A stretch of DNA of 64,000 nt from Amphibalanus amphitrite (taxonomy: Eukaryota > Arthropoda > Thecostraca > Balanomorpha > Balanidae): contig NW_024881518.1 of the NCBI RefSeq assembly GCF_019059575.1, forward strand, positions 434,001 to 498,000. Direction: 5' to 3'. The translations under genes were made by a program, and so were the position numbers. Numbering within the stretch: position 1 is the stretch's first letter; each line of letters begins with the position of its first letter. Under the pieces are notes generated by a model. The model had not been told where the DNA came from and made no database searches. It worked only from the letters and a program-made list of their open reading frames with translations. Positions 4,601 to 63,780 of this stretch are shown here, piece after piece.

Positions 4601-7600
4601 CTTTTCCTAAAAGGCTTCTACGCAACATGTCTGAAAATTTTGAGTTGATCTGACCTCAGGTCAGGTCACCAGAGGCGGTTTGGTGACCCTACCTCAGAAA
4701 AGTTTGCAATCACGCCAGAGCTAGAGTTTTTGACCGATCAATTTCTTCTCTTCAGGCTTTAGTTAGGGTACCAGTATGTGCAATTTGTATATCTCGGAAT
4801 TTTGATATCGGTGACCTAAGGTCAGGTCAGTTTCGCGACCTCCCCATTATAAGTCAATGGGGGAAAAATCAACTCCCTGTTTTTACCACTAAAACGGGTC
4901 GGAATGGCCCCATATACCATACATGACTTCATATACGATCAACCTTCACTACCTTGAGGTCTGTTTTGCTGTTGGGCAGCTGTGAGGTCATGTGACGTCA
5001 TCAAAGGTCACCAAAGGTTTTTGGCCAATAACTCCGTACAGGAACAATATACAGACGCGTGGATGGTCTCATTGTGTTCAGCTCGTCAAGACGCATCGAA
5101 TGATATACATGATGACCTCGAGGTCACGTGACCTGAGGTCAACCTTTGACCTTGACCTTGCGAGGTCAACATATATATCATTCGATGCGGATTGACGAGA
5201 GGATCACGATGATGCCCTTAGTTTGTTCCTATCTTGACTAATTCGAAAGTTATTCGAGAAAAACTCTCTCCATATCTAGCGCCGCCATTTTGACTTTTTC
5301 GACCCCTGTGACGTCATCTTTGACCTGACCTGAAAATGACCTTAGTAAAAATTGTAGATCTTGACCGTGCGTATCCGATGCCGTTTACCGTTTGTCGCTA
5401 TCTTGCTTCGTTCTCGAGATCTCAGGGGGGGCCGAATCGGCCCCCCCCCCCCGCCAGTTTCTTGTCCCGGCGGAGCCCGCCAGGAATAGGGTTAATTATT
5501 CATTGTTTTGAAGCTGCATGTGATTTTTATTGGGGTGTATTTCAAAACAGTGGATTGCCTCGATTGATTTTTTTTTTCACAAGTCTGATAAGTCATCACT
5601 AACGAGGGATCATTTCCGGCGGTCATTAAATCAACTGTCAGCCAGGATGGTTTTTCATGATCTAAATGTCTACCACCAGAATATATGTGACCTCGCCGCC
5701 GACCAGTGCTGACCTCTGTGACCCCTGTGATTCAGGTGAACGCCGGTCACGCCCCATCCGGCCTGAGCTGGGTGTTCAGTCGCGCCACCCCCGAGGCCCT
5801 CAAAGCCGAGGAGGAGAAACTCGGCAAACAGCTCCACCAGCTCAAGGTCGATCTGGAGGTATGTCAGCAGCTAAATGTGTGTTGTGTGTGCGTGCTGGGT
5901 CTAGGTGTCAGTTTTCAGCTGGCACCTTGTGTCACTGGGTCTGTCTGTGTGTGACAGTCTCTGAACGACTGTCTTGCGAAACTAGCCGTGTCCACTACCC
6001 ATGTCTTTATCTCTGTTGTTCTCAGTCTCTGAACAACCGTTGAGTGCTTGCAGACTAACCGTGTCGTGTTTCTGTGTCTCATTCTCTGAATGACCGTCTG
6101 GAGTGACTGACCATGCCGTGTTTCTGTCTGTCTCAGTCTCTGAACGACCGTCTGGAGTGACCGGTCGTGCCGTATTTCTGTCTGTCTCAGTCTCTGAACG
6201 ACCGCCTGGAGTGACTGACCGTGCCGCATTTTTGTCTGTATCAGTCTCTGAACGACCGTCTGGGGAGTGACTGACCGTGCCGTGTTTCTGTTTGTCTCAG
6301 TCTCTGAACGACCATCTGGAGTGACTGACCGTGCCGTGTTTCTGTCTGTATCAGTCAGTCTCTGTAGTGACTGACAGTGCCGTGTCTCTGTGTCATTCTC
6401 TGAACGACCGTCTGGAGTGACTGACCATGCCGTCTTTCTGTCTGTATCAGTCTCTGAACGACCGACTGGAGTGACTGACTGCTGTGTTTCTGTCTGTATC
6501 AGTCTCTGAACGACCGTCTGGAGTGACTGACCGTGCCGTGTCTCTGGGTCTCAGGCTCTGAACGACCGTCTGGAGTGACTGACCAGTGATTGTGCCGTAT
6601 TTGTTTATCAGTCTCTGAACGACCGTCTGGAGTGCGCCAACTCGAACCTGCTCGCCGACATGGAGCGCTGGGAGAAGCTCAAGGTTCGCGACATCTCTCA
6701 GTTGCTCGGCGCCATGGGCGACAGCCAGATCAACTTCTACGAGGAGGTGGGTCCTCGCTGCCGGGGTGCCTATCCCATTCTCTCCACATACCCCGCCGCT
6801 GAACATGCGCACTGGCTGCTATGATGAACTGACCAGTTAGGTAGCTTGGACGGGGCATATTTTGAGACCAGTCTTACGAAGTAGCGTACTTTGTCTTATA
6901 CCCCACTTTGCACCAGTATAACGCCTTTTGGGGCGACTAACGGAGCGAGCGAGAGGGTGAGCCTTGCACGTGCGAAATTTCGAGGGGGTACCTCCAACTT
7001 GACTTGTGCACGGCACCCTACTAACCGGTCTCTTGCGATGTGCCAAATTTGAGCACAATCGGCCCAGCCGTTCTCGAGATCTGGAAGCGGCACTCTGCAC
7101 GTGCGCACGTGCAAAATGGGTCCCAACTGACTTGTGCACGGCACCCTACTAACTGGTCCCTAGCCGTGTACCAAATTTGAGCGCCATCGGTCCAGCCGTT
7201 CTCGAGATCTGGAAACGACCCCTGCACGTGCGCACGTGCAGCAGCACCCCAACTCTGGCACATGGATATGCAGTGCCTAGTGGGTGCCTACCTACAGGCC
7301 AACTTTCAGCGCAATCGGCCAAGTAGTTACCGAGATATTGCAACAATTACGAAAGTGACACCTCTTCCTTTTGCACGTGGCACGTGCATAAGGGGTCACC
7401 CACATGTATCGGGAATAGTCCAATACTTGGTAGAAGGAATGAAGCTACCCTACAAAAATTACCGCATGTAAATCGGTCAAGTGGTTGCTGAGATATAAGC
7501 ACGGCCGGCCGGCCGGCCGCTCATACTCAGATATTTCCGTTAATCTAAGGAAAGACTCCGCTCGCTTCGCTCGCTCCGTAATCATTTGTATTTTGCAGTG

Positions 7601-9424: not shown

Positions 9425-10207
9425 CGCGCCGGACGAGCACACGCCCTACAGGCACCTCCCGGCAGCTAGCTGCGCCGCCACCGACATTCCACGCTCACTG
9501 CACGGCGGCTGGAGACGGACCGCTGAGGAGAGGAGCGCCACCGCTGGCGGGTGGCCGGCCCGGAGATGGAGGAGGGTGAGGTGTTGATGTCAACAGGGTT
9601 ATGGCGTGTCCAGCTCCACTCGCCAAGCGTCCTGGAGCTGGATGGGCGAGAGGGAGCGTTCTAGCGACGGGCGCTTGGAGATGGTGTCCAGCGCCAAAGA
9701 TTGGTATGGGCGGTACGCGGCTTGGCTTCTATGTGTGTTGGTTGGTGCGATACGCGATGTTGTACTGGAGATGGCATCGGATGTCGACTTGGTGTGGCAA
9801 TGGTTTTTTGGCGTCTGAGAAAAGCTATTTGTGGGCTTATGAGAACAGATATCCGCATGTGTACAGGATCTGGGATAGTTGATATCCGCTTGTGGCCAAG
9901 ATCTGAAGGCCTTGCCGGTGGGGAGGCCACAGAATGTGATGGCAGAGGTTGTGTCATAGGCAGTGTTTTCCTGCTCTCTGAGTATTGTTTTGTTTTTGAA
10001 GCTTATACCGATTGTAACCGACAACTGTATATGTCCGATATATATGTTGGCGTCTGTGAGACGCGTTGGCGATCCGCGACCGACCAAAGTCCGCTGCTGC
10101 TTTTCACAACACCCAATCTGAACGTGTTTATTATGTTGCTTCTGTCGTGTAGCATGTCCAAAGTATATTTGTGCTTGCATGCTATGATCTCTTACCCTAC
10201 ACTGTTA

Positions 10208-10213
10208 AATAAA
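10208..10213 (+). terminator. SNX poly(A) signal
   Basis: AATAAA lies about 780 bases after the SNX stop codon, followed by a T-rich stretch (10225-10257). This is the best candidate for the 3' end of the SNX transcript. Confidence 0.5.
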
Positions 10214-11918: not shown

Positions 11919-14900
11919 CGTTGGGAGTCCCGGCGTTCCGCTGTGTCAGCTCTGCCGTCTCTCTGGCCAGCCCTCCCTCCTGCTGGGCCGGCCATCCGAC
12001 TCCGCTGAGGTGGGCTTCCTCCATCTGTGCTATACAGCGCAGCATCTCCGGCCACGGCCGGCTGAGGAAGTTGCCGTCCCGCAGCGCCAGCAGGATCAGC
12101 ATCTTGACCGTGTCCATGTCCCTGGCCTTGATCTCGGCGTCGCCGGCGCTGGCGGAGGCCAGGGCGAAACGGGCCAGCGTCTGTAGGTAGGCGTCACGCT
12201 CCATCTGTGGGATGGAGGAGGCATGATGTGGCGAGAGGGACACGATGAATAGCTCCATACAAGGGCGTAGCTTTTTCTTAATTTAGACATTACCTTGTGG
12301 GTGTGATTGTGCTTGAGAGTGTAACCTTTAATAACCTTGGCTTCGCAATAGTGTGGGTTGTTTGGGAGCCAGCCGTGGCGGACCCCAACTGTTGCAGTCT
12401 ATACCTGCATCTGGAACAGGCAGTGGGCCCTTACCTGCATCTGGAACACGCAAGGAGCCCGTACCTGCATCTGGAACACGCAGGGAGCCCGTACCTGCAT
12501 CTGTAACACGCACGGAGCCCTTACCTGCATCTGGAACACGCAGGGAGCCCTTACCTGCATCTGGAACACGCAGGGAGCCCGTACCTGCATCTGGAACACA
12601 CAGGGAGCCCGTACCTGCATCTGGAACACGTAGGGAGCCCTTACCTGCATCTGGAACACGCAGGGAGCCCGTACCTGCATCTGGAACACACAGGGAGCCC
12701 GTACCTGCATCTAGAACACGCAGGGAGCCCGTACCTGCATCTGGAACACGTAGGGAGCCCTTACCTGTATCTGGAACACGCAGGGAGCCCGTACCTGCAT
12801 CTGGAACACACGGAGCCCGTACCTGCATCTGGAACACGCAGGGAGCCCGTACCTGCATCTGGAACACGTAGGGAGCCCTTACCTGCATCTGGAACACGCA
12901 GGGAGCCCGTACCTGCATCTGTAACACGCAGGGAGCCCTTACCTGCATCTGGAACACGCAGGGAGCCCGTACCTGCATCTGTAACACGCAGGGAGCCCGT
13001 ACCTGCATCTGTAACACGCAGGGAGCCCGTACCTGCATCTGTAACACGCAGGGAGCCCTTACCTGCATCTGGAACACGCAGGGAGCCCGTACCTGCATCT
13101 GGAACACGCAGGGAACCCGTACCTGCATCTGGAACACGCAGGGAGCCCGTACCTGCATCTGGAACACGCAGGGAGCCCGTACCTGCATCTGTAACACGCA
13201 GGGAGCCCGTACCTGCATCTGTAACACGCAGGGAGCCCGTACCTGCATCTGTAACACGCAGGGAGCCCTTACCTGCATCTGGAACACGCAGGGAGCCCGT
13301 ACCTGCATCTGGAACACGCAGGGAACCCGTACCTGCATCTGGAACACGCAGGGAGCCCGTACCTGCATCTGGAACACGCAGGGAGCCCGTACCTGCATCT
13401 GGAACACGCAGGCGATGTGGATGGCGCAGCGGACGCCGTCCAGACAGAGGTCGTCCACCTCGGCGCCCTCGCCGTCCTGCAGGCCCGTGCTAAACGCCGC
13501 CAGCACCGGCGCCCAGGCCAGCTGGAACATGGGCCGCACGTGCTCCACGTGCGTGGCGCACGTGAACTCGGCCTGCACGTGGCTGGCGGCCTCCATCAGC
13601 GACCTGGCCGCCATCGACATCTGCTCCATCTCCAGGTTGAACAGGAGCCGGCGCTGCTTCTCGTTCTGGGCCACTGCCGGTACAGTTTATGGTGCCGGTC
13701 GGGAAACGAGTCGCAGAGCCTCAACCCGCACCCCTCGAGGATGGTATTGGATGTTACCCTCGCCTTTTCATTATATGAAGTGTTACAGAATAATTAAATG
13801 TCACTTGTCTTGCCACATAAAAAACAAGTTGATATTTAAACTAAAATTTCGTCGCAACCTTAGCTCGATATTATTTAGCAGGGTTACAGGCTACTGACCC
13901 TGTCTGCCAGGTCTGGCGCACGGTATGACCCTCATCTTGATGGCGTTGCCGGCGATGTCGTCGTATATTCTCGTCAGGTAGAGAGGCGGCAGGTCCTCTC
14001 CGCCGTTGATCCCGCGGTTCATCCGGATGTACTGCTCCATGGTGATTTTGTGCTGCGAGAGAGGGGGAGCATGATATCGAAAACGATACCGTTACTTCAT
14101 CTTCATATACCCTTTGTAAATCGTCAGTCCCTCAATGCCATAATGGGGAAAATGCAGTTTCTCGTACCTTGACATGGGCGCTGTGCAGATCAGTAGTCAG
14201 CATGATGATGGAAAATGCCAGCACGTAGGCTGTGTCTGGACTGGTGAACAACTCCTGGCTGCGAACAGATTATGTATACTTTTCAATTGTCTGCGATATT
14301 GATTATGCTGTTTATTGAAATGTTTTAGCGATGTTCAGAATTAGCATTCATACTGCTGAACTAATAATTTCTATTTTTAGTGTCAGAACATAAAGCACTT
14401 TCAAGTGTTATTTCAGACAATCCCTTTTCATTATGGGCTATCACGATGCACGACTGCGACTAAAATTTCGCTACAATGAGTTAAGTGTTTCGCTTCTCAC
14501 TACACTTGCGTGCCAGTACAGCACTCACTCGGGATTGCACTCGCAGTATTTGCTCGCGAACTTTTCCATCAGTCGATCGATCTTCTGCGCCTCGCCTGGG
14601 AGTCTGAAACCGTCCAGGAACTGGCGTAGTGCCGCCAGAAATTCGCAGCCGACAAAGTCCAGACGATCCACGTGTTACGGGCGGCTGTGACCGCCCGTTG
14701 TGGCATGCCTGGCGCCGCCCGTGGCGCCTCCCCGGCTGGCCGCGCCCGGCGCCGCCCCTGCCGCGTGGCCCTCGGGCGGGGTCGAGGGCTGGCGCTGGCT
14801 GGGCGGTCGGCGGCCCGGGAGAGGCAGGGAGACCGTGGTTACGAGCGGTTGGCTCTGTGGTTCTTGTTTGGGCCTCTGCCGATAATACAGTAAAGCATCG

Positions 14901-17900
14901 AGTCTGAGTGTGTTCAGCTCCCGCAACATTTGGCGCGGCAACATTTGGACCCTCCCTCCAATCGCCCAGGCGCAAGCCAGTGACGCGACGCTGTCGGCTC
15001 TCCGAAGAGCACACGAGAGGAAGGAGAAGCCAAGGCCTGCAGCGTTCGCTGGGTGGGGAGTGCTGCGAAAACACTGGAGCAAGGTGCGCGTCATGAATGG
15101 AGTAATCGGCATTGCCTCGGGTCGACAGTTCCAGGCGGCGGTGCCTCAAACTGAACGGGCCGAGATCATCCGACTGGCGCATGATGATCCATCGAGCGGG
15201 CACATGGGTCGCAGACGGACCATCGCCCGGGTGAAGACTCGATTCGTCTGGCCGGGGATGAATGAGGACATCCGGAGCTTCTGTGCCTCGTGCACGCCGT
15301 GTCAGCGGCGGTACAGACCGGCACCCAAAAGACGAGCACCGATGGTTACCGGGGTTACCTCACGACCCTTCCAGAGAATAGCCATGGACATCACGGAGAT
15401 GCCTGTGTCGAGAAGAGGCAACCGATATGTGCTCGTGATCATGGATTACTTCTCAAAGTTCGTACGAATCTTCCCGATGCCGAATCAGAAGACAGAAACG
15501 GTGATGGAGGCACTCCTTCACTGGGTTCAGGAGCTTGGTGTTCCCGAGAGGCTTCACACAGATCAGGGCGCTCAATTCGAATCTCTGATGATGCGTGAGC
15601 TGTATCAGAGGCTCGGCATCCACAAGACTAGAACAACGCCTTATCATCCTGAGAGCGACGGGATGGTGGAGCGCTTCATGAGGACCCTGAAAGACATGGT
15701 GTCGAAATACATCGACAGCCAGGGCCTTGACTGGGACGAAAGTACCAGATCATACGCCATGGCCTACAATTCTTCCCTCCACGAAACCACCGGTCACACA
15801 CCTTTCTACATGATCCATGGCTTTGAGCCTCGGTTGCCTCTGGATGTAATGTACGGAACCGATGAAGTCGCAATACCAGCTGAAACCTTCCTGAACAAAC
15901 GGCTGAAGAACATGAAGCGGGTCTTCGCACAGGTGAGGAGAGCCTCCTCCCAATCAGCTGCTCGAATGGCGGTTCGCCATGACAGCAAACTCAATTTTAC
16001 CGCGTACCCAACGGGCTTGAAGGTGTGGGTACGAGACCACACTGCCGCTGTGGGAGGAAAACCGAAGCTGGGTCTGCCGTTTAAAGGACCGGTGACCATC
16101 GTCGAGAGAAGAGGCACACCGGGGGAGGAAGTTACCTACCGGATACAGGACGTCCGCGGCAAGACACGCGTCGTGCACCACAACGACCTCAAGGAGTTCA
16201 TCCCTCGTCGGACCGACTTGCAGCCAGTTCAGGATCCGAGTGGTCCAAATGGACGTGGTGAGGCCGTGGGGGTGGATCCCGTGAGCGACTGTGGTAACGA
16301 GCATGGCGTTCTGCTCGAGGTGCCGCTAATGCACTTACTCGGGAGAGCTGGCCCATCTGGTGATGTGGGCGTCGCTCAGAGGGGAATGTTGCCGCCAATG
16401 TCATACGTGACCAGATCAGGCCGAGTATCGCGACCACCTGAAAGGTTCCAGGCGGGACTATGAGTGTGGTGGAGGTGGTGAAGGCTGTGATTGTGTATAT
16501 AGTTGTAATGTAAATAGCGTGTCGTAAGTGTCGCATTGTTCAATGTATGATTGTTTCCGTGAGGGGGGAGGGGTGTTACGGGCGGCTGTGACCGCCCGTT
16601 GTGGCATGCCTGGCGCCGCCCGTGGCGCCTCCCCGGCTGGCCGCGCCCGGCGCCGCCCCTGCCGCGTGGCCCTCGGGCGGGGTCGAGGGCTGGCGCTGGC
16701 TGGGCGGTCGGCGGCCCGGGAGAGGCAGGGAGACCGTGGTTACGAGCGGTTGGCTCTGTGGTTCTTGTTTGGGCCTCTGCCGATAATACAGTAAAGCATC
16801 GAGTCTGAGTGTGTTCAGCTCCCGCAACACACGTACGCTTCCATCACCTGGAGAGAATGGACACGCAAGGATGGGAGCGGTTAGGCGTTTGATGCTCTCA
16901 GCTGTCAACCGCCGCGCTGGTGAACCGCGCAGACCTGCACAATTTGTCTTCGAACTGTGCAACAACCCGTCAGCCTTAACGCCTGACACTAGCCTCCGAG
17001 TTTTGACCCTTGGATCATGGCTCCCTTGAATCATTCCTGACCAGCCGCTGGCCCTAACCCCTGGCCTCTCCTGCTGCTACCGACCTGCTGCTGGTCGGGC
17101 CCCCTGGCCTCTCCTGCTGCTGACCAGCCGCTGGCCCTGGCCCCCTGGCCTCTCCTGCTGCTACCGACCTGCTGCTGGTCGGGCCCCCTGGCCTCTCCTG
17201 CTGCTGACCAGCCGCTGGCCCTGGCCCCCTGGCCTCTCCTGCTGCTGACCTGCTGCTGGTCGGGCTCGCCGAGGAAGTCTCCCAGCACGGTCCGGTCTAG
17301 CCGGTGATCCTCGTGGAAAAACGCCGCGATCGAGTCCGGTGTGTCCTTCAGGAGACCCTGACGCTGCAGGAACGCCAGGCCGCGCTTCGGCTTCCGATTA
17401 AACCTTTGGGATGAGACACAGTGAGTCAGTGAAAACTCACTTGAACTGCTTCCGTCATGGCCGGTCTGACAGCAAAGTGCTGGATTATATATGAGAGGGC
17501 TAGAATTTGTGCTTTGATAATTAATTAGTGCTTATTGATAAGCCTGATATTATTATATATAAAAATAAGATTGCTTTTAAAGTATGTGCTTAAAGTCTGG
17601 GTGTCAAAAGGTTTGGGTGTAAAACAATATTTACAAGACCTCGATAAATAGCCAAAAGGACTATCTAGTTACTTCGACGTGTGATCCTTTGCTTTCACCG
17701 TTGCATGGACCTTGGGTTATTTTGTCTGACCGTTCCGCCGTTTTGTAAACAACTCCTGATTACCGATGGCCACGTCGTTATCGACTTACCTATTTTTTTT
17801 TTTTTACACGATGAACACGAATCACACTGTGACCGGGCCAAGTCGATTGTCTAGCTCACAAACACTGTGAAGACGGAATCTTATCGTCTGATCTCTACCG

Positions 17901-18341: not shown

Positions 18342-18556
18342 CTGTGTTAACGAGTATCAGAGTCAACTTGGCCTTATGACAAGTATGAATATCTGCCGTA
18401 CAGAGATGCATTTTAGGAGGGTATGTTTTTCAATGCTTTTAGAGAAGCGCATCAATGAATGGCTATCGCTAACCGATATCCTGATCTGGCGCACAAGTGT
18501 CGACTGTCGTGTGTCGGTCCAACTGCACGTTTCGTGTCAGATGTACAACTTTACGA

Positions 18557-19033
18557 GTCTTTGTACTCCCACATGCTTCTGTACGTTGAACGCTTTATTG
18601 TACACAAAAATGAAAGACATAAAGGGAAGGATACATTGAAAGGCAAACAAAGGAAAAAGATAGAAACAGAAGGAATGGCACAAAACACAGCCTTGCGCGC
18701 ATGCAGCAAAGTGGGGTTTCTGCAAGCAGAGACAGCACATAACACAGTCAATGACACAGAAGTTAATGAGCGATGACCATTGACAGAAAAAGAGAAAATG
18801 AAGATGGCAACAACCAATGATAAGCAAACATATGAAAAAGTAGATCATATGCAAAGTAAAGCGTTACCGAAGTTTCCGCTCCCAGTTCATGCCAGTCTCA
18901 GCATAGCAGTCTCAGCATGCCATCTCATCATGCCAGCTTGTCAGTTCAAGCACACACAGTTAATATTTATACATGTCTGTCAGTGCAAGACCTGAGAAAA
19001 GAGAAACCTCAGTAAGACTTGGTGGTCGCAACA
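18557..19033 (-). repeat. 3' LTR of BEL/Pao element
   Basis: 477 bp copy matching 25615-26091 apart from a handful of substitutions. Confidence 0.88.
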
Positions 19034-19781
19034 CTCCCCCCAGTGCTTATCCTAGGCCTGAGGAGAACACTAACTGGAGCGACCATCGTTGATTATTCAC
19101 CGTTCAGCTCAATGACCGCCGAAAACTTACGCTAGACACATTAACTCAAAATACGCACGAACGCACGCGTCAAGCACTGCACATTTCAGAGAAAAGCAGA
19201 TATCGCACAGCAGCTTTAGCGTCCAGCACTCAGCCTCCATGCACTGTCACCTGGGCCTTGGTCACCTGCCCGTTCTCCGGCCAGTCACTCAGATATCGTA
19301 CAGACGCACCGCGCCGGCGAACCGTAACGCCGAAACCGTGCGCAAACTATAGAGTCCATCATCCGCTACACCTCTCCACTCAGCGTTCGCCCGAGCAGCT
19401 CACGCAGTCGCCCTCGCCAGGCAGACGTCTCTCCCCAGCCTCGCATCCTCCGCTCAGCGGCCAGAGCTCAGGAGACCCCGTCGGTGGCGGGCCAGGTCTC
19501 GGAACCAGTCCCGAGCACACAGCCGATCACAGGTCCAGCGCAGCACGCCGCCACCCCTCAGCTCCAGGACGCGGCCATGCAGTACGTCAGCAGCCCGAGC
19601 CTTCTCCAGGTCGAGCATCGAGCAGTACGCTGGGCGCATCGTGTCAGTGCCAATGGATGAGGTACTGTTTAACAGGTAAGACAGGGGGCAGGACGGTACT
19701 TGAATAGGGCTAGGATAAACAGCGCCTAGCACAGAACTTTCACTCTTCTTGACTTTCATTCTCGCTTTCACGGCCGTTTGC

Positions 19782-21863
19782 TCAGTTTCTTCCCTGAACG
19801 CAGCTTTCTAAAAAGCATATCTTGTTCGCTGGTCGTCGATAGGTAGATCCGCTGGAGGTCTGCACTGTCACAGTCCGGACACGACCATCATCTCCCGGAG
19901 AAACTTCCGTGACCTTGGCCAGCGGCCAGCATCCTCGTGGTGACCCTTGCTCGACCATGAGCACGATATCTCCAACTTGCAGATCACGATCTTCATGAAC
20001 CCATTTCTTCCTCTGGATGAGCATGGGCAGGTATTCACGCTGCCAGCGGCGCCAGAGCTGGTTGGCCAGAACCTGGGATTGCCGCCATTTCCCTCGACCC
20101 AACGCATCACCATCAGTGAACATCCCTGGAGGAAAGGCAGCCTGAGGGCTACCCAGAACGAAATGGTTGGGCGTGAGAGGCTCAGGGTCATTGATGTCCG
20201 AACTCACGTAAGTGAGTGGGCGACTGTTGATGGTGAATTCTACTTCCACCAGCGCGGTGTGCAGTACGTCCTCACTGACACACTGGTTGCCCAACACCAC
20301 TCGCAAAGCGCGTTTGACCATCGCCACCAACCTCTCCCAAACACCGCCCATGTGGCTGGCGGTGGGAGGGTTAAAACGCCACTCGATGTGTCGCTGACTA
20401 AGTTCGTCGGTGATCTGTGCCTGATTCCACGCATCCAGACAACTCCTGAGGTCCTTTTCACCTGCGACCAGATTCGTGCCATTATCTGACCAAATGACAC
20501 GCGGACGCCCCCGGCGGGCAAAGAAGCGCCGGAGGGCCATGAGGAACCCATCTGTATCCATCGAGCTCACAAGCTCCAAGTGCAACGCACGCGTCGCCAG
20601 GCAGGTGATGAGCAGCACATAGCGCTTTTCGGTCTTGCGGAACTTCCGAACGGGGAGTGGGCCACAGTAGTCAAGGCCAACACATGCAAACGGTCGAGAC
20701 ATGTCAAACCGACTCGCCGGTAGGTCCGCCATCATTGGAGTCGGGGGCTGCGCACTTCTCCTCCTGCAGTACGCACAGTTGTAGATGAGCTTTCTTGTTA
20801 CTGATCTTGCCTTGGGTATCCAGTAGTGAAGCCGCAGTTCACTGAGCGTCTGCTCCAGACCTGCGTGCAGTGCCCGTCTGTGGACATCGGTGACGATCAG
20901 TCTGATCACGTCATCGTTCCTACTGATGAGGAGAGGATGACGACAGGTCTCAGCCAGTGGGGCATTACGGAGACGTCCCCTCGCTCGGAGCAGTCCCCGC
21001 TCGTCGACATACGGGGAGAGATGGAGAAGCGTGCTGTCCTTCGGCAGCCGAGATCCACTGGCGACAGCTTGCAGTTCGGCATGGTACGCCGCCCGTTGGA
21101 GCTCTCTGAGGACGAACACCTCAGCTGACTGGACCTCAGCCGACGTAAGAGCTCCACTTACACGGCTGTCTTTACTCCGCCTGGCGTTCTCGCAGAATCG
21201 CAGCACCCAAGCCACCGTGCGTTTGTACTTCACCCACGATGAGTACCGGGAAGGATCCACCAGTGGCCCCTCGCTGCTCTGTGCTGCAAATACTGCTTCA
21301 TTTGGAGTCTTCATTTCTGCGTCTTCTGCGCTTTGCGTTGACGTGACGCGTTCCGGAGGCCATTCTTCACGATCCTTGGTCAAGAACTCGGGGCCCGACC
21401 ACCACAGTGAGCATGTCTGGAGGTCCGGGCCTGACATCCCGCGAGAGCAAACGTCTGCTGGATTGAGCTCACCGGGAACATGGTGCCACTGCTCAGTCTC
21501 TGATGAATCTTGTATTTCTGCGATCCTGTTGGCGACGAAAGTGTGGAACCGACGACTTTCGTTTCTTAAGAACCGCAGCACCACAGAGCTGTCGGTCCAC
21601 AGGAAGATTTCATCGAGACTGCACGTGAGCTCTCCTTTGACGAAGTTGGCCAGCCTCACCCCCAACACAGCAGCCTGCAGCTCAAGGCGAACAATTGTCA
21701 ATTGCTTCAAGGGAGCGAGACGAGTCCGTGACATGATGAAGGAGGTGGTTCGTGCCGTCGGCACATGACATCCTGAGGTATGCGACTGCACCAAAGGCCT
21801 TTTGGGATGCGTCACAAAAGATGTGAAGCTCTCGACCTGTGACTTCACCATCCGGCGGAACAT
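19782..21863 (-). pseudogene. BEL/Pao RNase H and integrase region
   Basis: The frame is open for 693 codons. RNase H-like sequence comes first (LTIVRLELQAAVLGVRL, FLWTDSSVVLRFL), then the integrase zinc-binding region (HAGLEQTLSE and CAYCRR) and a core with GLDYCGPLPV, WSDNGTNLV and GGVWERLV carrying the three acidic residues. It ends in a short DUF-like tail (VGDIVLMVEQGSPRGCW). Its start overlaps the previous frame by about 180 bases, so a frame break separates it from reverse transcriptase. Confidence 0.87.
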
Positions 21864-22974
21864 CAGCCGCGTAGCATCGCTGGATCTCGATGGTCTCGAG
21901 ATGAGGCATCTCCGACAACCAGTTCTCCCAAGCCAGGAGTTCTTCTCCGCTCAGCTGGCAGTCCCAGTCGAGCTTCAGCTTCCAGAGGTGCTGGACGAGC
22001 AGCTTGGCCCTGAGAACAAACGGAGAGACGATTCCAATAGGGTCGAAGACCATAGACAGTCTTCTTAGAACGCCACGCTTGGTAGCTGGGACGTCCATGT
22101 CTGTTACCTTCACGCCGAGAGCATCGCTACCAGGCCTCCAGACGCATCCCAGAGCACGCTGAGTGCCCTGGCCGAGATGCGCCAAGTCGAGCCCGGATGC
22201 ACTCATTTCATCAGCTGGGACACCTTGGAGAGCTTCTGGTTTGTTCGTGGTCCACTTCGTCAAACGGAAACCGCCCTTGGCCACCAGCTCAGTCACGTTC
22301 GTACACATCTTCCTCGCCTGTTCTACATCTGGAACCGAAACGAGCAGGTCATCCATGTAGAAGTTGCGCTTGACAGATTCAACAGTGGCTCTCGACTCAT
22401 CTGTGTCCTCCTCATGGTCCTCCGCCGTTCTTCGTAGAGCGTAGTTGGCTAGGGTCGGGCTACATCGGGCGCCAAATATGACGACCATCATTTGATATGT
22501 ATCTGGAGGTCTGCTCCTATCCATGTGCCGCCACAAGAAGCTCAGCGCCGGCTGGTCCTCCACTCTCACCCGCACTTGGTGGAACATTGCTTCCACATCG
22601 GCCACGAGCGCCACTCTCTCCTGTCTGAACCTGATCAGAACACCAACCAGACTTTGCAGGAGATCAGGGCCGGTGATGAGGGCATCGTTGAGGGAGATTC
22701 CTTCACAGCGGGCAGCGGCGTCGAACACTACGCGGACTTTCGACTTGTTCGGGTTGCTTACCGCGTGATGGGGGAGCAGCCATCTCTTTTCGCTGGGCCT
22801 GGCCAGCTCCTCCGGTGACACTTTGCGGGCGTAGTTCTTCGTCACATAGCCCATCAGAACGTCTTCATAAGCGGCAGCTTTTGCTGGGTCACGAGACAGG
22901 CTCCTCTCCAACGATTGCAGTCTTCTCTCGGCCATCTTCCTGTTGTCAGGCATCTTCACGCCGTCTTCTTCCAC
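21682..22974 (-). pseudogene. BEL/Pao reverse transcriptase region
   Basis: 430 codons open. The motifs KVRVVFDAAARCEG, LVADVEAMFHQVRV and YMDDLLVS (the catalytic aspartates) are those of BEL/Pao reverse transcriptase. The frame begins inside the preceding frame's end and stops inside the RNase H region. The two breaks look like single-base indels. Confidence 0.87.
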
Positions 22975-25595: not shown

Positions 25596-25614
25596 GGACT
25601 TCGAAACTGTAGCG

Positions 25615-26091
25615 GTCTTTGTACTCCAACATGCTTCTGTACGTTGAACGCTTTATTGTACACAAAAATGAAAGACGTAAAGGGAAGGATACATTGAAAG
25701 GCAAACAAAGGAAAAAGATAGAAACAGAAGGAATGGCACAAAACACAGCCTTGCGCGCATGCAGCAAAGTGGGGTTTCTGCAAGCAGAGACAGCACATAA
25801 CACAGTCAATGACACAGAAGTTAATGAGCGATGACCATTGACAGACAAAGAGAAAATGAAGATGGCAACAACCAATGATAAGCAAACATATGAAAAAGTA
25901 GATCATATGCAAAGTAAAGCGTTACCGAAGTTTCCGCTCCCAGTTCATGCCAGTCTCAGCATAGCAGTCTCAGCATGCCATCTCATCATGCCAGCTTGTC
26001 AGTTCAGGCACACACAGTTAATATTTATACATGTCTGTCAGTGCAAGACCTGAGAAAAGAGAAACCTCAGTAAGACTCGGTGGTCGCAACA
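25615..26091 (-). repeat. 5' LTR of BEL/Pao element
   Basis: 477 bp copy matching 18557-19033. The minus-strand start TGTTGCGACC is at 26091. Confidence 0.88.
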
Positions 26092-44537: not shown

Positions 44538-44579
44538 AGCAAAGTGCATGCAGATTCCTGATCTGCGCCCACGAATACA

Positions 44580-53359: not shown

Positions 53360-53399
53360 TGCAATGTGATCTGTTGAGGCAAACTGCGTCATTTCATTC

Positions 53400-55250: not shown

Positions 55251-55265
55251 GAGCGGCGACCTCAG

Positions 55266-55334: not shown

Positions 55335-55337
55335 GCG

Positions 55338-58300
55338 ATGGCGGTCGAGGTCAAGGGTCCACGTGAGCGGCTATGGGCGCAGGTGAGGAGCAATTAGAAT
55401 AGAAGGTGTTATTAATGGTCGCTGCATGGAAAATTGGTTGGATTTTCCGGAGCTTTTGGTATTGAGAAATTTGGAAATTTGTTTGAAAAACGGAAACATA
55501 GTTTGTTACTTATTTGTTCTTGTTGTTTCATTTACTTGTTAAAATTTGCTGTGCAGCATGTCAGGATAAGACCTCTTTACCTTTCAGTTTGGTGCACCAT
55601 TCATTTGCCATACAAAGACTGATGTTCAGTGTGTTCTTTGTCAACATTACAACGGATATCACTGAGCAGACAGAGAGAATAACGATATTGAATAATAAAG
55701 GCACCAAGGCCAGATGTAAAGCTTTCTACTACGTAGAGTCGAGTCTTTCACTGTAATCTTATTAGGACTTTTCTATTCATAACAATAGTTTTTAAGGCTA
55801 GAATAGTGCTTTGGTATTGCTTTTATACTTAAGAGAGCCCATGTAGACTGTGGAGTTGAGCAGATATTTAAAGCAGCAAAACAGTGAACAACTTCGACAC
55901 CGAAATATTTCGGTAGGTACACGAAGTCTCGTAGGATATTCAAGCAATGGAAAGTCCTGACCTTGGCCAGTTCGGGGATGTTTATTTTCCTAGACGAAAA
56001 CTTATTTTCGTCCCGATTACAGTGAGACAAAAACGTCAACATGAGTGAAAAAACATTTTTAACGAATTAATTCAAGATTATAATTTATAATGAATAAACT
56101 ACTTGTTAAATTTGGTCATTTACATTTGTCTTGAACCAAACTTCAAATTTCAGTGAACAAATTGAATAGCACCAAATTATCACTTCAAAATATCAAAATC
56201 CGACAGCTTGCATGCCGTTGTAAAACATACTAGATGAACGACATTTGACATATTCGAAAACTAAGTACCTAACGATCAATTTATTAAATTACTTCAAGTG
56301 ACCCATTCCAAACTTATCATCATAATGAATAACAACAAACTAGTCTCAAACTTTGCCACCTACCTAGATTTACGCCTAATGATGAATATTGTTGAAAACC
56401 TCGCTCGCCACTAACTTAGATTCTCCATTGATAGCACACCAGCTTTTGAATAGGTGACATTGTATTGGTGGTATAGAGCATAAGCAATTTTAATGAAGAA
56501 ATGCTTGCATTTTTAAAGAACGCCGTTCCACTAACCTTAAATTGATCACTTCTCTATTCCCTATCTTAAATAAATAATCCTTCCCTCGCTACTGACAGCT
56601 GAGAGTCAAGCTCACGTGAAATTGGCACGTGACTTATTTCTATTTGATCACTTGCAATAACTTTTCAAGCAATCAATCACACAAGACGATTGTAGGCGTT
56701 ATAGCAACAAACAAACTCCTAGAATAATCAGAGAGCCCCGTACTTACTTCAATGAATATCTAACCAGTGAATCATTTTATATCATATTTAATCATTGCAT
56801 ACAATAAGCCAGAACAAAAAGCCTCACGATGTTTTGGGAGATTTTGAAAAAGGCTATTGTGGCCCACATTGCCATGATAAGATTAGAGAGGGCCAAAATG
56901 AATAGCTGGCGGAAAAGAATAGGGTTGAGGCCCAAATACCCAATATGGGACGAAGTCGTTTGGTGGTGGGGCGGAATATGCCGTGAGCTTCTAGTAAGAG
57001 GAATATGTCCCTGCTTCTTCCTCTTCAAGAACCGTCAAACCGAGGAAGAAATCAAAGAAGAGCTCGCCAAGCAAGAGGCGGAAAAGCGCAAGGCCGAACG
57101 GAAAAAGCGGAAAAATCCCCCGCTGTGGCGAGTCAAAGGGACGTGGCACAACCAGATCGTGATGGCGCTGTTTGGCTTCGCGTGCGGCGCCGTGGCCACG
57201 CTCGCCATCTACTTCTTCATGGTGTTCCAGCTGACGTACAATCCCTTCACGGCCACCATGTTCTGCCTCTGCGTCGGCCCCTTCCTTACCATCGGCCTGG
57301 CATTCAGCGAGGAGTTCAGACTGATGGGCATCCTCATCTTCCCCTACATGTTCGCGGGGCGCGGGCGGGCCATGCTGCTATCCTTCTGTCTCGTTCTGGC
57401 CGTCAACGGTCCCGGCAAGTCGATCATCTTCAACGCGGAGGTGCTCAACGACTCACTGGCGTGCTACTACAACGTCCTGGTCAACGTCATCTGCGACGTC
57501 ATCAAGCAGGGCTTGAACGGCGTCATGAGCGTAGTGCAGGCAATCGTCAACATGGCCACTCAGATGATGTGCATCTACAAGAAGATCATGAAGGTCTTTG
57601 CCCAAATAAAGAACGCTATGATGGACATTGGCGTTGCCATCAAGAGTGCGTTCACATGGCTGCAAGCCATAGAAGGTGTCTGTGACGAAAAATACGGCGG
57701 ACCCATGCAGCGATGTGAGAAGACGTTCAACGACGCCACCGACAACTGCATGGCCACGCTGGGACTGGGCGCACTGAACTACCATCTCTGCAGTATCGTG
57801 GACTGGTTCAAGGGAATCTGTATGTTTGCCCGTATCATCGAGTATCTGTGTCAGCCTGCTCGGGGAGCGAGAAAGGGCAGTGTTGATGACGCCAGGAGCT
57901 ACATGTACCAAGCTTCGGGGAAGTATCACTCCTTCTTCCTCTTCGGACTGGAGCTCTACAGTGACTTTGACATGAAGGTAAACATGTCCAAGTCCCTGAA
58001 GCAGATTCGCAAGGAGATCTTTGACGAGGTGGTCGACAGAGGCGGCTGGGTGTTCTTCATCATGGACGCGTTTAGCTGGAGCTGCGTCGTGTACATCCTA
58101 CTCATCCTCGCCAAGGCAGTCATGTACCGCTACCGCTACGTCACCGACGACGGCTACGACAACCACTACTTGTCCGTGCTCATCAAACGCGTGGATGACA
58201 AGCGCGAACAGATGGAGAAGCCCACCGTGCTCCCGCTGAAGACACGCGAAATGCGTCGGTACATCGACCCCATGTCGCTAGCACTCACACGCACAGAGAT

Positions 58301-61300
58301 TCGTGAGCTGACTCGCGTGGCTGTGAACCTCATCGCCACCGGGTTCCAAATCGGCTACCTCATGTTCGTCGACACGTCGCTCTACTTCATCATGGAGACA
58401 ATCCGGAGCAACGGCTACGTCAAGACCAACTTCAAGCGCCGCACGCCTGCCAAGGCGGTCGTACAAGGCGATGGATTCATGGCGGACGCTATCCGTTCAA
58501 CATTCACCCACATGCCGCAGTCCTTCTCCAGTAACATCCCCGAGATTGACACCACCGAGTGTGTTCCGTACGGCTGGCCGCCGAACCACGACCGCTACCG
58601 CCAGATCATCGTCTTCTACCTCATGGTTCTCGTGTTCGGTCTCGCGCAGCCTCTGGCATTGCGTCTTCGCCATATCGCCTGCGGGTGGTACTACCCAGAA
58701 CGTGCCAGAAAGCGGGCGCTCTGGCTTTACAACGCCATACTGAAACGCCGCGGCGGTTTTATATCATTCGTGCAGCGAACCCTCCGTCGCAAGCAGCTCG
58801 TCGACCCAAACATGGATGTGGTGGGGAGGATTCTGGAGCGGCTGGCGATCTCGATCCCTTGTCTTCGCGTGATGCTCACCTACCTCGGCATGGTTCGCGT
58901 CTACTGCGGCGTCTGCTCGGAGAGCTATGACCCGGAGGCTGACGAGGGCGCCTTCCGTCGCTGTGATAACTACGGCTGCGAGGGTGTGTACTGCCACGAG
59001 TGTTTCTCCGACATGAACAACCGGTGCACTATCTGTCTGAAGCCAGTTGACTACGGAGACATCTCTGACATCAGCGAAGAGGTCGACTCCAGCTCTGACG
59101 AGGAACTCATCAAGAAGCGAGAAGAGCGCCTTCTTATGAAGGAGCTGGGACTGCCTCCTCTTGAAGAGGATGAAAAGGAAGACGAGGATCTCGAGTACGA
59201 CTACCAGGAGGATCCTGACCAAGCTGATGGCTGGGATTCAGACCAAGAGCGGTGGCAAAACCGACGCAAAGCGAGGCGTGACGTCGAGAATCAAAACAAG
59301 GACGGCGGAGCGACTATGGATATGCTGGAGAGTGAGGAGGAGAGCGACGATGAAGAGGCAGACGAAGTGATCGACACGTTCCACCCAGACGAGCTCAATG
59401 ACGCCGACGATGAGGAGGAAGAGGAGGGCGAGGACGAAGAAGATGACGAGGTGGCCAAACTCCTGCCGCTTCCAAAGAACAAAGCGAGCGCGGCGGCCGC
59501 TAACTTGATTTCCACTGCAGTGTAATGGGGTTGGGGTAGGTGGCGCGCTTCTACGAAGTCCATGCCTTCTCCAATGTGTGAAATGCATCAGCACACACGC
59601 TGGTTCGTGTGCTATACTTTCCCGTGGCGCCAGTAAACGTGTGTTTCTCTCAATTAGCTGTCATGTCTCTGTGCTGTCCAATCCGTGTAATGAGCCCACA
59701 GTGTCCCTTGTGGTGTGAATTGTGAATTGTGATGTCCTTTGTCGAGTAACGTCCTACTAAGGAGAGTGGCTCTTGTAAACTAGCTGTGATTGAATGCGCA
59801 TGCTGTAGCAATTATTTTCAAAGGGTATGCCGTATGTACTAGAATGAATTGCGCCATGCAACTAATAAAGTTGGGACTGAAACCAAGAATAGCTATCTCT
59901 TTCATACAACACAGCACTGTTGGCAGTACGAAATGCCGGCCGAATCGGCCCTTTTACAACAGATAATACACTGAATTAAATCGGACATCAAAGAGCTGAC
60001 GCATACTTTAATCAGTTAGCTGCGAACATTTTTCGTATGCCATATCATTAAACTTATACGAGTATATCTCACGAAATAATAATCATCACTCATTTTAACG
60101 ACTCCTTCTTTCGCGCCATCAACACAGTCATAGGCATGCTCAGAGCTCTCTATCTGCATCCTTCCGAATGCCAACATCTCCGTTGTTCCCAGTACACTAC
60201 ACAGAAAAACGGACCAGTTTCCCAGAGTTCCGCATCTATCAGGCGTTTCAGTAATATCATCAAGTATCCTTCCACTTTCAATCTAACGTCAACATCTTGA
60301 TTCAGATTACCTCACACCTTCAACTCATCACATAATCCACAGCTCCAACAGCAGACTTGGATTTCCCGTACATACCCGCACACTGCGGTCTAACCCCACC
60401 ACCTCCATCCCTCAGCCGACCGTCCCACTGCGGTCTAACACCACCCCATCCCTCAGCCGACCGTCCCACTGCGGTCTAACCCCACCCCATCTCTCAGCCG
60501 ACCGTCCCACTGCGGTCTAACCCCACCCCATCCCTCAGCCGACCGTCCCACTGCGGTCTAACCCCACCCCATCCCTCAGCTGGCCGTCCCACTGCGGTCT
60601 AATCCCACCCCATCCCTCAGCCGACCGTCCCACTGCGGTCTAACCCCACCTCCATCCCTCAGCCGACCGTCCAACTGCGGTCTAACCCCACCCCATCCCT
60701 CAGCCGACCGTCCCACTGCGGTCTAACCCCACCCCATCCCTCAGCCGACCGTCCCACTGCGGTCTAACCCCACCCCCATCCCTCAGCCGACCGTCCCACT
60801 GCGGTTTAACCCCGGACCTCCATTCCTCAGCCGACCGTCTCACTGCGGTCTAACACCACCCCATCCCTCAGCCGACCGTCCCACTGCGGTCTAACCCCAC
60901 CTCCATCCCTCAGCCGACCGTCCCACTGCAGTCTAACCCCCATGACCTCCATCCCTCAGCCGACCGTCCCACTGCGGTCTAACCCCATCCCATCCCTCAG
61001 CCGACCGTCCCACTGCGGTCTAAAGGCCTGGCTACACTATGCGTTTTCTTCGTGCGTTTTTTGCGTGTTTGCGTGTTTTGCGTGATATCGTTCTAGAAAA
61101 AAGAACGATATTACGTTTTTGTGATGTTTTTCACCTTAAATTTTAGTTACATAAGAGTTATATTAGCTTTTGTATATAACCAAAGTAAAAATTATATTGT
61201 TTATAACTTTTTTCCTAGAACGATATTACGCAAAACACGCAAACTTGCAAAAACGCACGCAGAAAACGCATAGTGTAGCCAGGCCTTAACACCACCCCAT

Positions 61301-63780
61301 CCCTCAGCCGACCGTCCCACTGCGGTCTAACCCCACCCCATCCCCCCGCCGACCGTCCCACTGCGGTCTAACCCCGGACCCCCATCCCTCAGCCGACCGT
61401 CCCACTGCGGTCTAACCCCACCCCATCCCTCAGCCGACCGTCCCACTGCGGTCTAACCCCACCCCATCCCTCAGCTGACCGACCCACTGCGGTCTAACCC
61501 CACCTCCTCCATCCCTCAGCCGACCGTCCCACTGCGGTCTAACCCCACCTCCTCCATCCCTCAGCCGACCGTCCCACTGCGGTCTAACCCCACCCCATCC
61601 CTCAGCCGACCGTCCCACTGCGGTCTAGCCCCACCCCATCCCTCATCCGACCGTCCCACTGTGGTCTAACCCCACCCCATCCCTCAGCCGACCGTCCCAC
61701 TGCGGTCTAACCCCACCCCATCCCTCAGCCGACCGTCCCACTGCAGTCTAACCCCCATCACCTCCATCCCTCAGCCGACCGTCCCACTGCGGTCTAACAC
61801 CACCCCATCCCTCAGCCGACCGTCCCACTGCGGTCTAACCCCACCCCATCCCTCAGCCGACCGTCCCACTGCGGTCTAACCCCGGACCCCATCCCTCAGC
61901 CGACCGTCCCACTGCGGTCTAACACCACCCCATCCCTCAGCCGACCGTCCCACTGCAGTCTAACCCCACCACCCCATCCCTCAGCCGACCGTCCCACTGC
62001 GGTCTAACCCCACCCCCATCCCTCAGCCGACCGTCCAACTGCGGTCTAACACCACCCCATCCCTCAGCCGACCGTCCCACTGCAGTCTAACCCCACCACC
62101 CCATCCCTCAGCCGACCGTCCCACTGCAGTCTAACCCCACCCCATCCCTCAGCTGGCTGCGGCACTCGTGATGTCGCATACCCACTGGATTTACGGCACC
62201 TTCATCAGCTTCAACGGACTGCTGATCGCAGAGTCTCAGTCAGAGACAGCGCGCCTCAGTCTACCTGAAGCCACTCTGGTGGCTTCCATTGCGCAGGCCG
62301 GCCGCGTCCTAGGTTAGTGGGGGTGGGGGGGGGGGACAGAGCGTCATAGTGTATGAGATTAGTCATAGGCTAGTGGAAAAGTGTCTAGATTCTAGGGGAA
62401 GGTATAAGTTTGTGTGATAGCAAGGGAACAAAAAGTGATTCTCGGGCTGGCAATATTACTAGGAGCGAATGGATAATGCCAATGCTTGTGCGCCATCAAC
62501 TCCCCAGTCCCCAGTCCCATCTACTAGCTCAACTTCATCCTATCTCTTCAGATAACCTGACAGCACCCGATTTCTCGCCAGGCTGCCTGCTCTCCGCCCA
62601 GCTGACCGACCGCCTGGGCGTGCTGCGGGTCATCCAGCTCGGCACGCCCATCAACCTGCTGGCCTGGCCTCTGATGACCCTAACCAGCGGCATGACCACG
62701 ATGGTAGCCGGATCGATCCTGCTTGGGGTATTTGTAGGCCTCAACGCGTTCGGAGGACGGCTATACATCGCCGAGGTAGGCACAGAGACAGGGGGAGGGG
62801 TATGTACCTAGTGTCTGCTGCCAACAAAGTAACTACATAGTGACGCAGCTGGTGGTGTATGTAAGGTGTGAATGCAATTTATTTCCATGAGCTTGCTTAT
62901 GGAAAGTGATACAAACTGATTTTTAGCAGCACTTATCGTTAATTTAGCGCAGCACTAAGTACTAACGAATAATCACATTGCACGTGTGTGGGGGTGCAGC
63001 CGAGACAGAGGTCCAGGTATGTACCACATAGCCAAGCCGTTAATTTAGTTGGCCTTTTTTGAACTGATTTATTTTCGTGAATGGGTGTTTTTACGGTAGT
63101 CCGTACGCCCTACCCCGTTTAGCAGCTCAGCGACGGCAGTGATTTCGTTACGCGATCCAGTGACGTCATTTGCCCGCTCGGCCAGGTGAGCTCAGTGCAC
63201 CGTAGGGCCACACTCTGCTATCTGCCGACCACCGCGGTCGGTGTGGCCCTGTTGGCCTGCTTCTCGCTCAGTGCTGCCATCCCGTGGCGATACGCGGCAC
63301 TACTCTGCGGCTGTGTGCCCTCTGTTCTGCACTTCTTTGGAGCGACTCTGCTGCCAAACTCGCCAAGGTAGGCGAGAGCCATAACATTGCCGAGTAGAAT
63401 CGTCGTAAAGCATGCCAGTGGACGTTCTTGCGTATGCAAATAAGTTGGAATGGATATTGGCACATGCCACATAATCTACTTGTCGTAACAAACGTGTGTT
63501 ACCAAACATGCTTTTTCCAAATACAGATGCGGGTTATCCATTTTCGAACATAAGTTGCATTTCGCACTGTGCAAAGAAAGCTACAAAGGGATAAGTCACA
63601 CACGAATTGACCTTAGTACCGCGAACTGCCGACAGATGGCTCTTGCATCACGGCGCTGCCGAGGAGCAGGCCCGGAAATCCATCGCTTTCTACCGTGGAC
63701 CACAAGCGGACATATCGTCTGAGCTTAGGGATATCCGGCTCTCCCTCAAAGGCGGCAAGAATCTCAATATTCTCCGGCAG
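55338..63780 (+). CDS. Sugar-porter-like MFS transporter, paralogue 3 (first five coding exons; continues beyond window)
   Basis: Exons 55338-55382, 62153-62312, 62582-62775, 63186-63367 and 63636-63780 join in phase. Intron positions and phases (0, 1, 0, 2, 0) equal those of paralogue 2. Exon 1, MAVEVKGPRERLWAQ with a GTGAGG donor, is inferred from its phase and its likeness in position to paralogues 1 and 2; it is less certain than the rest. TM1 is LAAALVMSHTHWIYGTF; then TDRLG, GRLYIAE, LLPNSPRWL and RKSIAFYRG follow as in the paralogues. Helices 7-12 lie outside the window. Intron 1 (6.8 kb) contains the DC-STAMP gene and a minisatellite that abuts exon 2. Confidence 0.85.
55383..56828. 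other. Intron 1 of paralogue 3 before the nested gene
   Basis: AT-rich with no coding sequence recognised. It must contain the promoter of the DC-STAMP gene; a weak TATA-like TTTTATAT lies at about 56775. Confidence 0.4.
56829..59525 (+). CDS. DC-STAMP domain protein with C-terminal RING-like finger (sneaky/DCST1/2 family), intronless
   Basis: A single 898-codon frame with its own AATAAA at 59864. A basic coiled stretch (residues about 70-100) precedes membrane helices near 108-135, 138-160, 165-200 and 410-435. The DC-STAMP domain ends near 620-650 with LAQPLALRLRHIACGWYYPE. At about 691-737, CGVCSESYDP, RRCDNYGCEGVYCHECF and CTICLKP form a RING-like zinc finger as in sneaky, SPE-42 and DCST1/2. 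The remaining 150 residues are highly acidic, longer than in the human proteins. Family members act in sperm-egg fusion or sperm membrane breakdown, so sperm expression is expected (inference). No introns interrupt the frame, unlike every neighbour. It sits in the first intron of sugar-porter paralogue 3 on the same strand. DCST1 versus DCST2 cannot be decided. Confidence 0.9.
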   Translation: MFWEILKKAIVAHIAMIRLERAKMNSWRKRIGLRPKYPIWDEVVWWWGGICRELLVRGICPCFFLFKNRQTEEEIKEELAKQEAEKRKAERKKRKNPPLWRVKGTWHNQIVMALFGFACGAVATLAIYFFMVFQLTYNPFTATMFCLCVGPFLTIGLAFSEEFRLMGILIFPYMFAGRGRAMLLSFCLVLAVNGPGKSIIFNAEVLNDSLACYYNVLVNVICDVIKQGLNGVMSVVQAIVNMATQMMCIYKKIMKVFAQIKNAMMDIGVAIKSAFTWLQAIEGVCDEKYGGPMQRCEKTFNDATDNCMATLGLGALNYHLCSIVDWFKGICMFARIIEYLCQPARGARKGSVDDARSYMYQASGKYHSFFLFGLELYSDFDMKVNMSKSLKQIRKEIFDEVVDRGGWVFFIMDAFSWSCVVYILLILAKAVMYRYRYVTDDGYDNHYLSVLIKRVDDKREQMEKPTVLPLKTREMRRYIDPMSLALTRTEIRELTRVAVNLIATGFQIGYLMFVDTSLYFIMETIRSNGYVKTNFKRRTPAKAVVQGDGFMADAIRSTFTHMPQSFSSNIPEIDTTECVPYGWPPNHDRYRQIIVFYLMVLVFGLAQPLALRLRHIACGWYYPERARKRALWLYNAILKRRGGFISFVQRTLRRKQLVDPNMDVVGRILERLAISIPCLRVMLTYLGMVRVYCGVCSESYDPEADEGAFRRCDNYGCEGVYCHECFSDMNNRCTICLKPVDYGDISDISEEVDSSSDEELIKKREERLLMKELGLPPLEEDEKEDEDLEYDYQEDPDQADGWDSDQERWQNRRKARRDVENQNKDGGATMDMLESEEESDDEEADEVIDTFHPDELNDADDEEEEEGEDEEDDEVAKLLPLPKNKASAAAANLISTAV
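59864..59869 (+). terminator. Poly(A) signal of the DC-STAMP gene
   Basis: AATAAA about 340 bases after the stop codon, followed by a T/G-containing stretch. Confidence 0.6.
60379..62152 (+). repeat. 41 bp minisatellite ending on the 3' splice site of paralogue 3 exon 2
   Basis: About 37 copies of a roughly 41 bp unit. Each holds CTAAC (branch-point-like), the pyrimidine-rich CCCACCCCATCCCTCAG and then CCGACCGTCCCACTGCGGT. The last copy's CCATCCCTCAG is the acceptor of exon 2 (CTGGCTGCGGCACT...), which itself resembles the unit after CAG. A copy at 60567-60590 reads CAGCTGGCC, as the exon does. A MITE interrupts the array at 61024-61286. Confidence 0.93.
61024..61286. mobile_element. 263 bp MITE (PIF/Harbinger-like) inside the minisatellite
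   Basis: About 80 bp terminal inverted repeats begin AGGCCTGGCTACACTATGCG on both strands. The 3 bp target TAA is duplicated (61021-61023 and 61287-61289). The repeat unit's CTAACACCACC is restored when the element is removed. A TWA target and GGCC-type ends fit PIF/Harbinger. No coding capacity. Confidence 0.85.

Follow-up and report, generated by a model that had tools for sequence, protein, structure and literature searches.

The window analysed here is the whole 64,000-nucleotide stretch C21:434001-498000 of Amphibalanus amphitrite, which belongs to a searchable eukaryotic genome of 807.6 Mb in 2,644 contigs. It carries one SNX-like gene, one ARFGEF/BIG-like gene and three sugar-transporter-like genes. 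The Sec7 domain gives the sole strong database match among them, and the other gene names are presumptive, some of them with weak matches. Splice junctions were placed by eye through reading frame and splice consensus. This gave 53 junctions, where an earlier sequence-only reading had counted about 25, and an ARFGEF exon that bears a retroelement was left out of the 53.

That reading had also placed four minisatellites exactly on exon edges of three genes, with the complete splice signal and some exon bases in every unit. All four are detected by TRF, and they form an acceptor array in the SNX-like gene (A1), two donor arrays in the ARFGEF/BIG-like gene (A2 and A3) and an acceptor array in a transporter-like gene (A4). 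Thus, the three kinds of gene stand, with the correction that two of the four arrays share one gene. The exon edges agree with two acceptors (6612 and 62153) and two donors (13393 and 17250, minus strand). Splice signal and exon bases do recur in nearly all units, except that the CAG has been lost in some copies of A1 and A4. The exon always adjoins the 5'-most copy at the donors and the 3'-most copy at the acceptors (4/4 arrays). The exon part of the copies is close to the real exon in A1, A2 and A3 and has diverged in A4.

There are 13 copies of about 54 bp in A1 (5958..6634, plus strand). TRF reports a 54 bp unit at 6053-6634, since the 5' end of the array is degenerate; copies are readable from 5958, and the earlier start at 5926 is replaced accordingly. 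A CTGAC motif that resembles a branch point is seen in most copies, together with a pyrimidine-rich tract, CAG and 22 exon bases; the CAG is kept in 11 of the 13. The exon that follows (6612..6746, plus strand) has the authentic acceptor at its start, with 6612 as its first base. We take it to be sorting-nexin-like, and its match to BAR_3_WASP_bdg (E 0.0013) is below the Pfam cut-off. With a matrix made without array junctions, the authentic acceptor scores 0.2 and seven of the ten scored copies score higher. Assuming the same incoming phase, a stop is reached within 24 codons from all ten upstream copies.

The A2 array (12402..13412, minus strand) has 34 copies of CAG/GTA in 30-bp units, one of them of 28 (TRF: 12402-13412, 30 bp, 33.8 copies), and the CAG/GTA is present in every copy. 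Each unit includes 18 exon bases by reading and 20 by automatic count. The exon that ends in the authentic donor (13393..13673, minus strand) is presumably ARFGEF, with no match for it in a Pfam search, and the next exon starts at 12204 on the same strand. The authentic donor scores 8.5, and nine of the 33 other copies score higher, at 10.6. The reading frame is open to the 20th copy, with copies 2 to 20 in frame, so each later donor up to copy 20 would add ten residues.

The A3 array (17037..17265, minus strand) is in the same gene as A2, within the part that encodes the Sec7 domain. Its units are 40-44 bp long with about 16 exon bases each, and CAG/GTC alternates with CTG/GTC (TRF period 41/84 bp). 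The Sec7 exon that ends in its first donor (17250..17403, minus strand) matches PDB entry 3ltl with E 3e-14. Once fused to the following exon, in the form found on the other contig described below, it matches the Sec7 domain with E 4e-40. An LTR retroelement lies in a Sec7 exon of this gene at 14674-16829, with 257-bp LTRs that are 100% identical. It is missing from the second contig, and the five bases ACGTG are found on both sides of it. These features suggest a very recent insertion, by which this ARFGEF-like allele would be disrupted.

The A4 array (60381..62153, plus strand) is composed of 41-46 bp units (TRF: 60381-62153, 41 bp, 41.8 copies). There are 34 copies of CAG, namely 33 upstream and the authentic one, and two more copies without CAG. 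CTAAC and a pyrimidine tract are present in most copies, along with about 14 exon bases that have diverged. The exon that follows (LAAALVMSHTHWIYGTFISFNGLL..., 62153..62312, plus strand, first exon base 62153) had no match in a Pfam search, and we take it to be that of a sugar transporter. The same acceptor position is free of an array in two paralogues within the window, at 35127 and 47566, and therefore the gene family does not have the array in common. The authentic acceptor scores 9.3 and its 33 copies range from 7.6 to 11.1. A stop follows within 24 codons from 32 of the 33 upstream copies, again assuming the same incoming phase. Thus, a normal protein from the genes of A1 and A4 would need the outermost copy. 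Splice-site strength does not mark the authentic site in A1, A2 or A4. A MITE-like insertion with terminal inverted repeats (GGCCTGGCTACACTATGCG..., judged by eye) is found inside one A4 unit at 61034..61289. Upstream of this array, a single open frame of 905 codons (56808-59525) presumably encodes a DC-STAMP family membrane protein-like product with a cysteine-rich C-terminal part.

Contig C484 holds A1, A2 and A3 with their flanks, letter for letter identical to the window, although the two contigs may not be independent. No second genomic copy of the A4 flank is found at high similarity. The match to C484 stops at the end of a long retroelement with near-identical terminal repeats (about 18547-26091), whose open reading frames we take to be BEL/Pao-like, and therefore one contig may be misjoined there. 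At the position of window 5683, C484 has about 0.7 kb extra, with 96% identity to window 6911-7500 along 590 bases; this is a dispersed element that only one of the two contigs has at this place.

Another pair of contigs bears on array length. C16:487185-487702 and C329:619070-619737 have common flanks, with 16 and 30 exact donor-motif copies, respectively, of a 30-bp unit. The unit reads VSGLPLWPVS in frame and coding-like sequence follows it, so this candidate, at first taken for a donor array, could be a coding repeat or a donor array and is treated as ambiguous. Copy number differs between these two contigs at one related, possibly coding, array.

Excess of array units derived from exon ends

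Four such arrays had seemed too many for chance placement, and two null models bear on this. When six minisatellites were placed at random in the window in 20,000 runs, at least four overlapped a junction in 2% of runs. The stricter outcome, at least four overlapping arrays with an end no more than 25 bp from a junction, came up in a single run of the 20,000. A second null starts each array from a seed one unit long, dropped anywhere in the window, and predicts 0.25 junction arrays compared with the four seen (P = 1.4e-4).

A larger sample of 231 kb is composed of the window, 120 kb of C21 flank and the 47 kb of C484 that do not match the window. There are 22 arrays in this sample by TRF (period at least 10, 2.5 copies, about 70 bp), and two GA microsatellites were dropped. 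Among the 20 that remain, nine are junction-derived, two lie inside coding exons and nine lie elsewhere. The expectation is 0.86 junction-derived arrays (P = 3e-7, or 8e-5 with doubled junction density), wherein the flanks are given the junction density of the window as a guess. Outside the window, five of 14 arrays are junction-derived compared with 0.64 expected under the same assumed density (P = 5e-4). The nine comprise six donors and three acceptors. Four of the five in the flanks were picked for a donor-like unit, and the fifth was reached via open frames in the flanks.

These five are found in a variety of genes. A donor array at C21:404059 belongs to a DEPDC5-like gene (PDB match 5e-30), another at C21:536803 to a DUF3719 protein (Pfam 2.5e-7), and a third at C21:399313 is assigned on an open frame only. 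A degenerate donor array at C21:498381 starts 68 bp past the donor of the next transporter exon. The remaining one is an acceptor array at C484:13460 in an OSGEP/KAE1-like gene (PDB 2.5e-19).

Across the genome, triples of the donor motif AGGTGAGT at gaps of 14-44 bases were compared with triples of the reversed motif. There are 376 triples compared with 147, where single occurrences differ by 1.16-fold only (24,012 versus 20,752). On contigs C1-C203, among the first 100 matches for each, these reduce to 31 and 12 loci (P = 0.010). The loci on C56 and C161, both among the 31, have a common unit and may be one locus, and the other units differ. The reversed control is not clean, because TGAGTGGA after G is itself donor-like, and this arrangement is the first copy at seven of the 12 control loci. 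When both strands of the control loci were read by eye, an exon was found alongside at up to seven of the 12 (six with G before the motif), and a Pfam search with two of these exons gave no usable match. The C16 locus, which may be a coding repeat, is one of these seven. With three donor-like control loci omitted, the contrast is 31 versus 9 (P = 0.0016).

The 5' flanks of the first 20 AGGTGAGT loci, in list order, were scored for codon bias after training on 2,225 codons of window and SNF exons. The score up to the first copy exceeds 0.1 at 18 of the 20 array loci and at 23 of 25 window donors that were already known (the training set includes some of these). The same holds for 6/12 reversed-motif arrays, 4/10 unrepeated AGGTGAGT sites and 14.6% of 3,000 random window positions. 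At a threshold of 0.3, the corresponding values are 13/20, 16/25, 2/12, 2/10 and 7.3%. Arrays differ from unrepeated sites, a null of ten sites in local sequence, with P = 0.007. Two array loci (L052 and L058) are below the coding score, and at a third (L059) the coding sequence seems to run on the other strand, so that this array would be of the acceptor type.

Ten of the 20 exons were tried in Pfam or PDB, and four matched: DP (1.9e-11), CBM_14 (1.3e-5), PHO4 (2.2e-8) and TFIIB (7e-21, PDB). An Ig match for the exon of L061 is below the cut-off, and searches with the exons of L048, L051, L053, L058 and L062 gave no match. Some exons among the array loci are, we presume, FOXP-, CMTR2-, XPG- and kinesin-like. 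A genome search with the rarer motif CAGGTAAGT gives no excess, with 14 matches at three loci (two of them with a common unit) compared with 38 reversed matches, the latter counted as matches and not listed as loci. There are two matches to CAGTGAAGT, which is also a rarer motif.

A test of base coverage gives another view. A profile search of the genome with PF00209 (SNF) yields 122 matches, from which a sample of 20 stretches (49.4 kb, 51 matches) was drawn with intronless copies and apparent second haplotypes excluded. The 100 junctions of this sample comprise 99 placed automatically, two of which were moved and some of which are probably wrong, and one added by eye. Two of the 100 lie in repeats (95% interval 0.2-7%), compared with 2.4-4% of control positions, so there is no excess. 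Both are clear donor arrays, on C10 (66 bp, 5.8 copies) and C485 (80 bp, 2.1 copies), and are too few to judge alone. A third junction is spanned by a 20-bp duplication of 1.9 copies, which is below the 30-base test. In the window, four of 53 junctions lie in repeats at 22-23 of 30 identical bases compared with 6.6% of other positions, and at 27 of 30 the values are 1/53 and 5.1%. There is also a long array in an SNF transporter gene at C485:385923-386650 and beyond (L035, L079), whose units have CAGTGAGTG and a pyrimidine tract. It could be of donor or acceptor origin and was left out of the junction counts.

Coverage is silent on where a duplication began, because long junction-derived arrays also fill control positions. 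Since coverage at junctions is no higher than background, the claim of enrichment rests on the origin of the array units. Thus, the expectation that arrays overlap junctions more often than by chance fails for base coverage and holds for unit origin, which is in excess at junctions. The broader proposal, by which splice junctions are places where tandem duplications start or are either tolerated or selected, is supported by a sampled genome-wide test, through the flank arrays, the donor-motif triples and the coding-like flanks.

Similar repeats in other animals

The closest resemblance is to the mirages of the amphioxus globin and Adh3 genes, which are described as minisatellite-like tandem duplications of 10-160 bp units over an exon-intron edge, proposed as a route to intron gain, with RT-PCR that suggests normal splicing and with copy numbers that differ between haplotypes (PMC3087553). 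The arrays described here share the involvement of either the 5' or the 3' boundary, the many copies of AG or GT and the presence of further copies inside the intron. In the four window arrays and the five further ones, of which that at C21:498381 is degenerate and starts 68 bp past its donor, the duplication spans the exon-intron edge of a coding gene. An AG or GT splice signal together with exon bases is found in the units of the window arrays and of a set of 24 donor arrays. Boundaries of both kinds are affected (six donors and three acceptors among the nine local arrays). Mirages are reported there gene by gene, whereas the excess at exon ends is seen here in a genome sample from an arthropod; most units here are about 28-90 bp long, with up to 34 copies of the splice core.

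A donor minisatellite in the human gene IFI6 was reportedly described by Turri in 1995. According to a later source, two downstream units of the IFI6 (6-16/G1P3) minisatellite are reported to be used as donors and to yield three mRNAs (PMC4526556). The likeness lies in a minisatellite with donor sites in its units where an exon ends. The differences are that many genes are concerned here and that acceptors are affected too. Use of this type is predicted to be compatible with the frame of A2 up to its 20th copy, and not with A1 or with all but one of the A4 copies.

In human duplicated genes, variable internal tandem repeats at exon-intron boundaries can change splicing; they were compared between recent paralogues and tied to novel introns, and the available text leaves a junction excess untouched (PMC2812944). 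An account of Caenorhabditis elegans intronic minisatellites does not describe junction arrays in its accessible part (PMC4039745). Among the literature matches listed, from a search that left subscription journals mostly outside its scope, none reports barnacle junction minisatellites or a genome-wide junction excess. Junction minisatellites are known as a kind of repeat, although descriptions of them are rare; here they are present at many genes.

Origin and significance of the arrays

These observations cause us to favour, as the rather probable explanation, that the arrays are mirage-type minisatellites that arise as junction-spanning duplications, grow on the intron side and are born unusually frequently near exon ends. 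A short tandem duplication would span the exon-intron edge and then grow by slippage or unequal exchange. The outermost copy would remain the splice site, so that the exon is unchanged and further copies fall inside the intron. Perhaps splicing hides such duplications and makes them almost harmless, so that they survive and grow, whereas selection would remove any duplication that lies completely within an exon. Under this model, the outermost copy is presumably the one that is spliced and the others are mostly silent decoys; usually, only the outermost splice site of an array should give the normal protein.

The counts are the basis for suggesting an unusually high birth rate of duplications near exon ends. 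A uniform birth rate accounts for about one tenth of the observed number, and therefore a higher rate near exon ends is needed. Even with a selection sieve added, uniform birth falls short of 9/20, so an extra birth bias, for which the model offers no cause, is required. A rival explanation, which we consider unlikely, is that junctions are mutational hot spots at which transcription or splicing (R-loops, polymerase pausing or nascent RNA bound by snRNPs) promotes slippage or template switching. The tenfold surplus of junction-derived arrays, the genome-wide enrichment of donor motifs in arrays and the local predominance of donors over acceptors (6 versus 3) are all consistent with such a process. 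However, the donor excess is small and comes in part from the manner of looking, and GC-rich exon sequence that is generally prone to slippage would look alike.

Selection might instead keep the arrays for added isoforms, for protein variants of differing repeat length or for robustness to splice-site mutation, which we regard as improbable. The best case for this is A2, where each in-frame donor up to the 20th would lengthen the protein by ten residues and where the splice cores show no changes in 33 copies, together with the reported donor use in IFI6 (PMC4526556). However, the conservation of A2 has low power because most of its columns vary little, and the A1 and A4 copies lead to stops. 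Unit lengths in 24 donor arrays are multiples of three no more often than by chance (9/24). The first spacing modulo 3 is 0, 1 and 2 in 9, 9 and 6 of these arrays, an even distribution that is expected if most copies are not translated. The exon bases per unit in the same arrays have a median of 20 (range 1-40, automatic measure). In the comparison of columns, conservation in the repeated splice cores does not clearly exceed that elsewhere in the unit. Thus, neither length nor core conservation gives a clear sign that the copies are used or selected.

It is very improbable that the arrays are a coincidence wherein repeats make up several per cent of the genome and strike junctions in proportion. 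Coverage at junctions does equal background and simple overlap of four of six arrays has P of about 0.02, but coincidence leaves unexplained the array ends within 25 bp of junctions, the junction content of nine of 20 arrays and the coding-like sequence that runs to the first copy at 18 of 20 donor-motif loci. An assembly artefact, with repeats collapsed or falsely expanded, is hardly credible: short-unit arrays are easily mis-sized and the match of C484 to the window does end at the edge of an LTR element, but A1 to A3 recur exactly on that possibly non-independent contig, junction sequence is present in many different units at different genes, and mis-sizing would alter copy number without creating junction content.

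The arrays are of interest in several ways. The choice of the spliceosome between equal sites is usually studied in built reporters; in these arrays, copies that score as high as the authentic site or higher lie beside it, yet in A1 and A4 the outermost would have to win for a normal protein. They also offer intron gain, and the movement of exon boundaries, something concrete to start from. Their distribution suggests that the birth of minisatellites along genes is not random, and a bias that proves to be mutational would tie the processing of transcripts to DNA instability. We propose more tentatively that junctions in this lineage are hot spots of tandem duplication through a transcription or splicing process, and that position is the sole cue by which the spliceosome settles on the outermost site among as many as 34 that are nearly identical. 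If this is true, the genome would amount to a collection of natural experiments on exon definition, perhaps a hundred of them or more.
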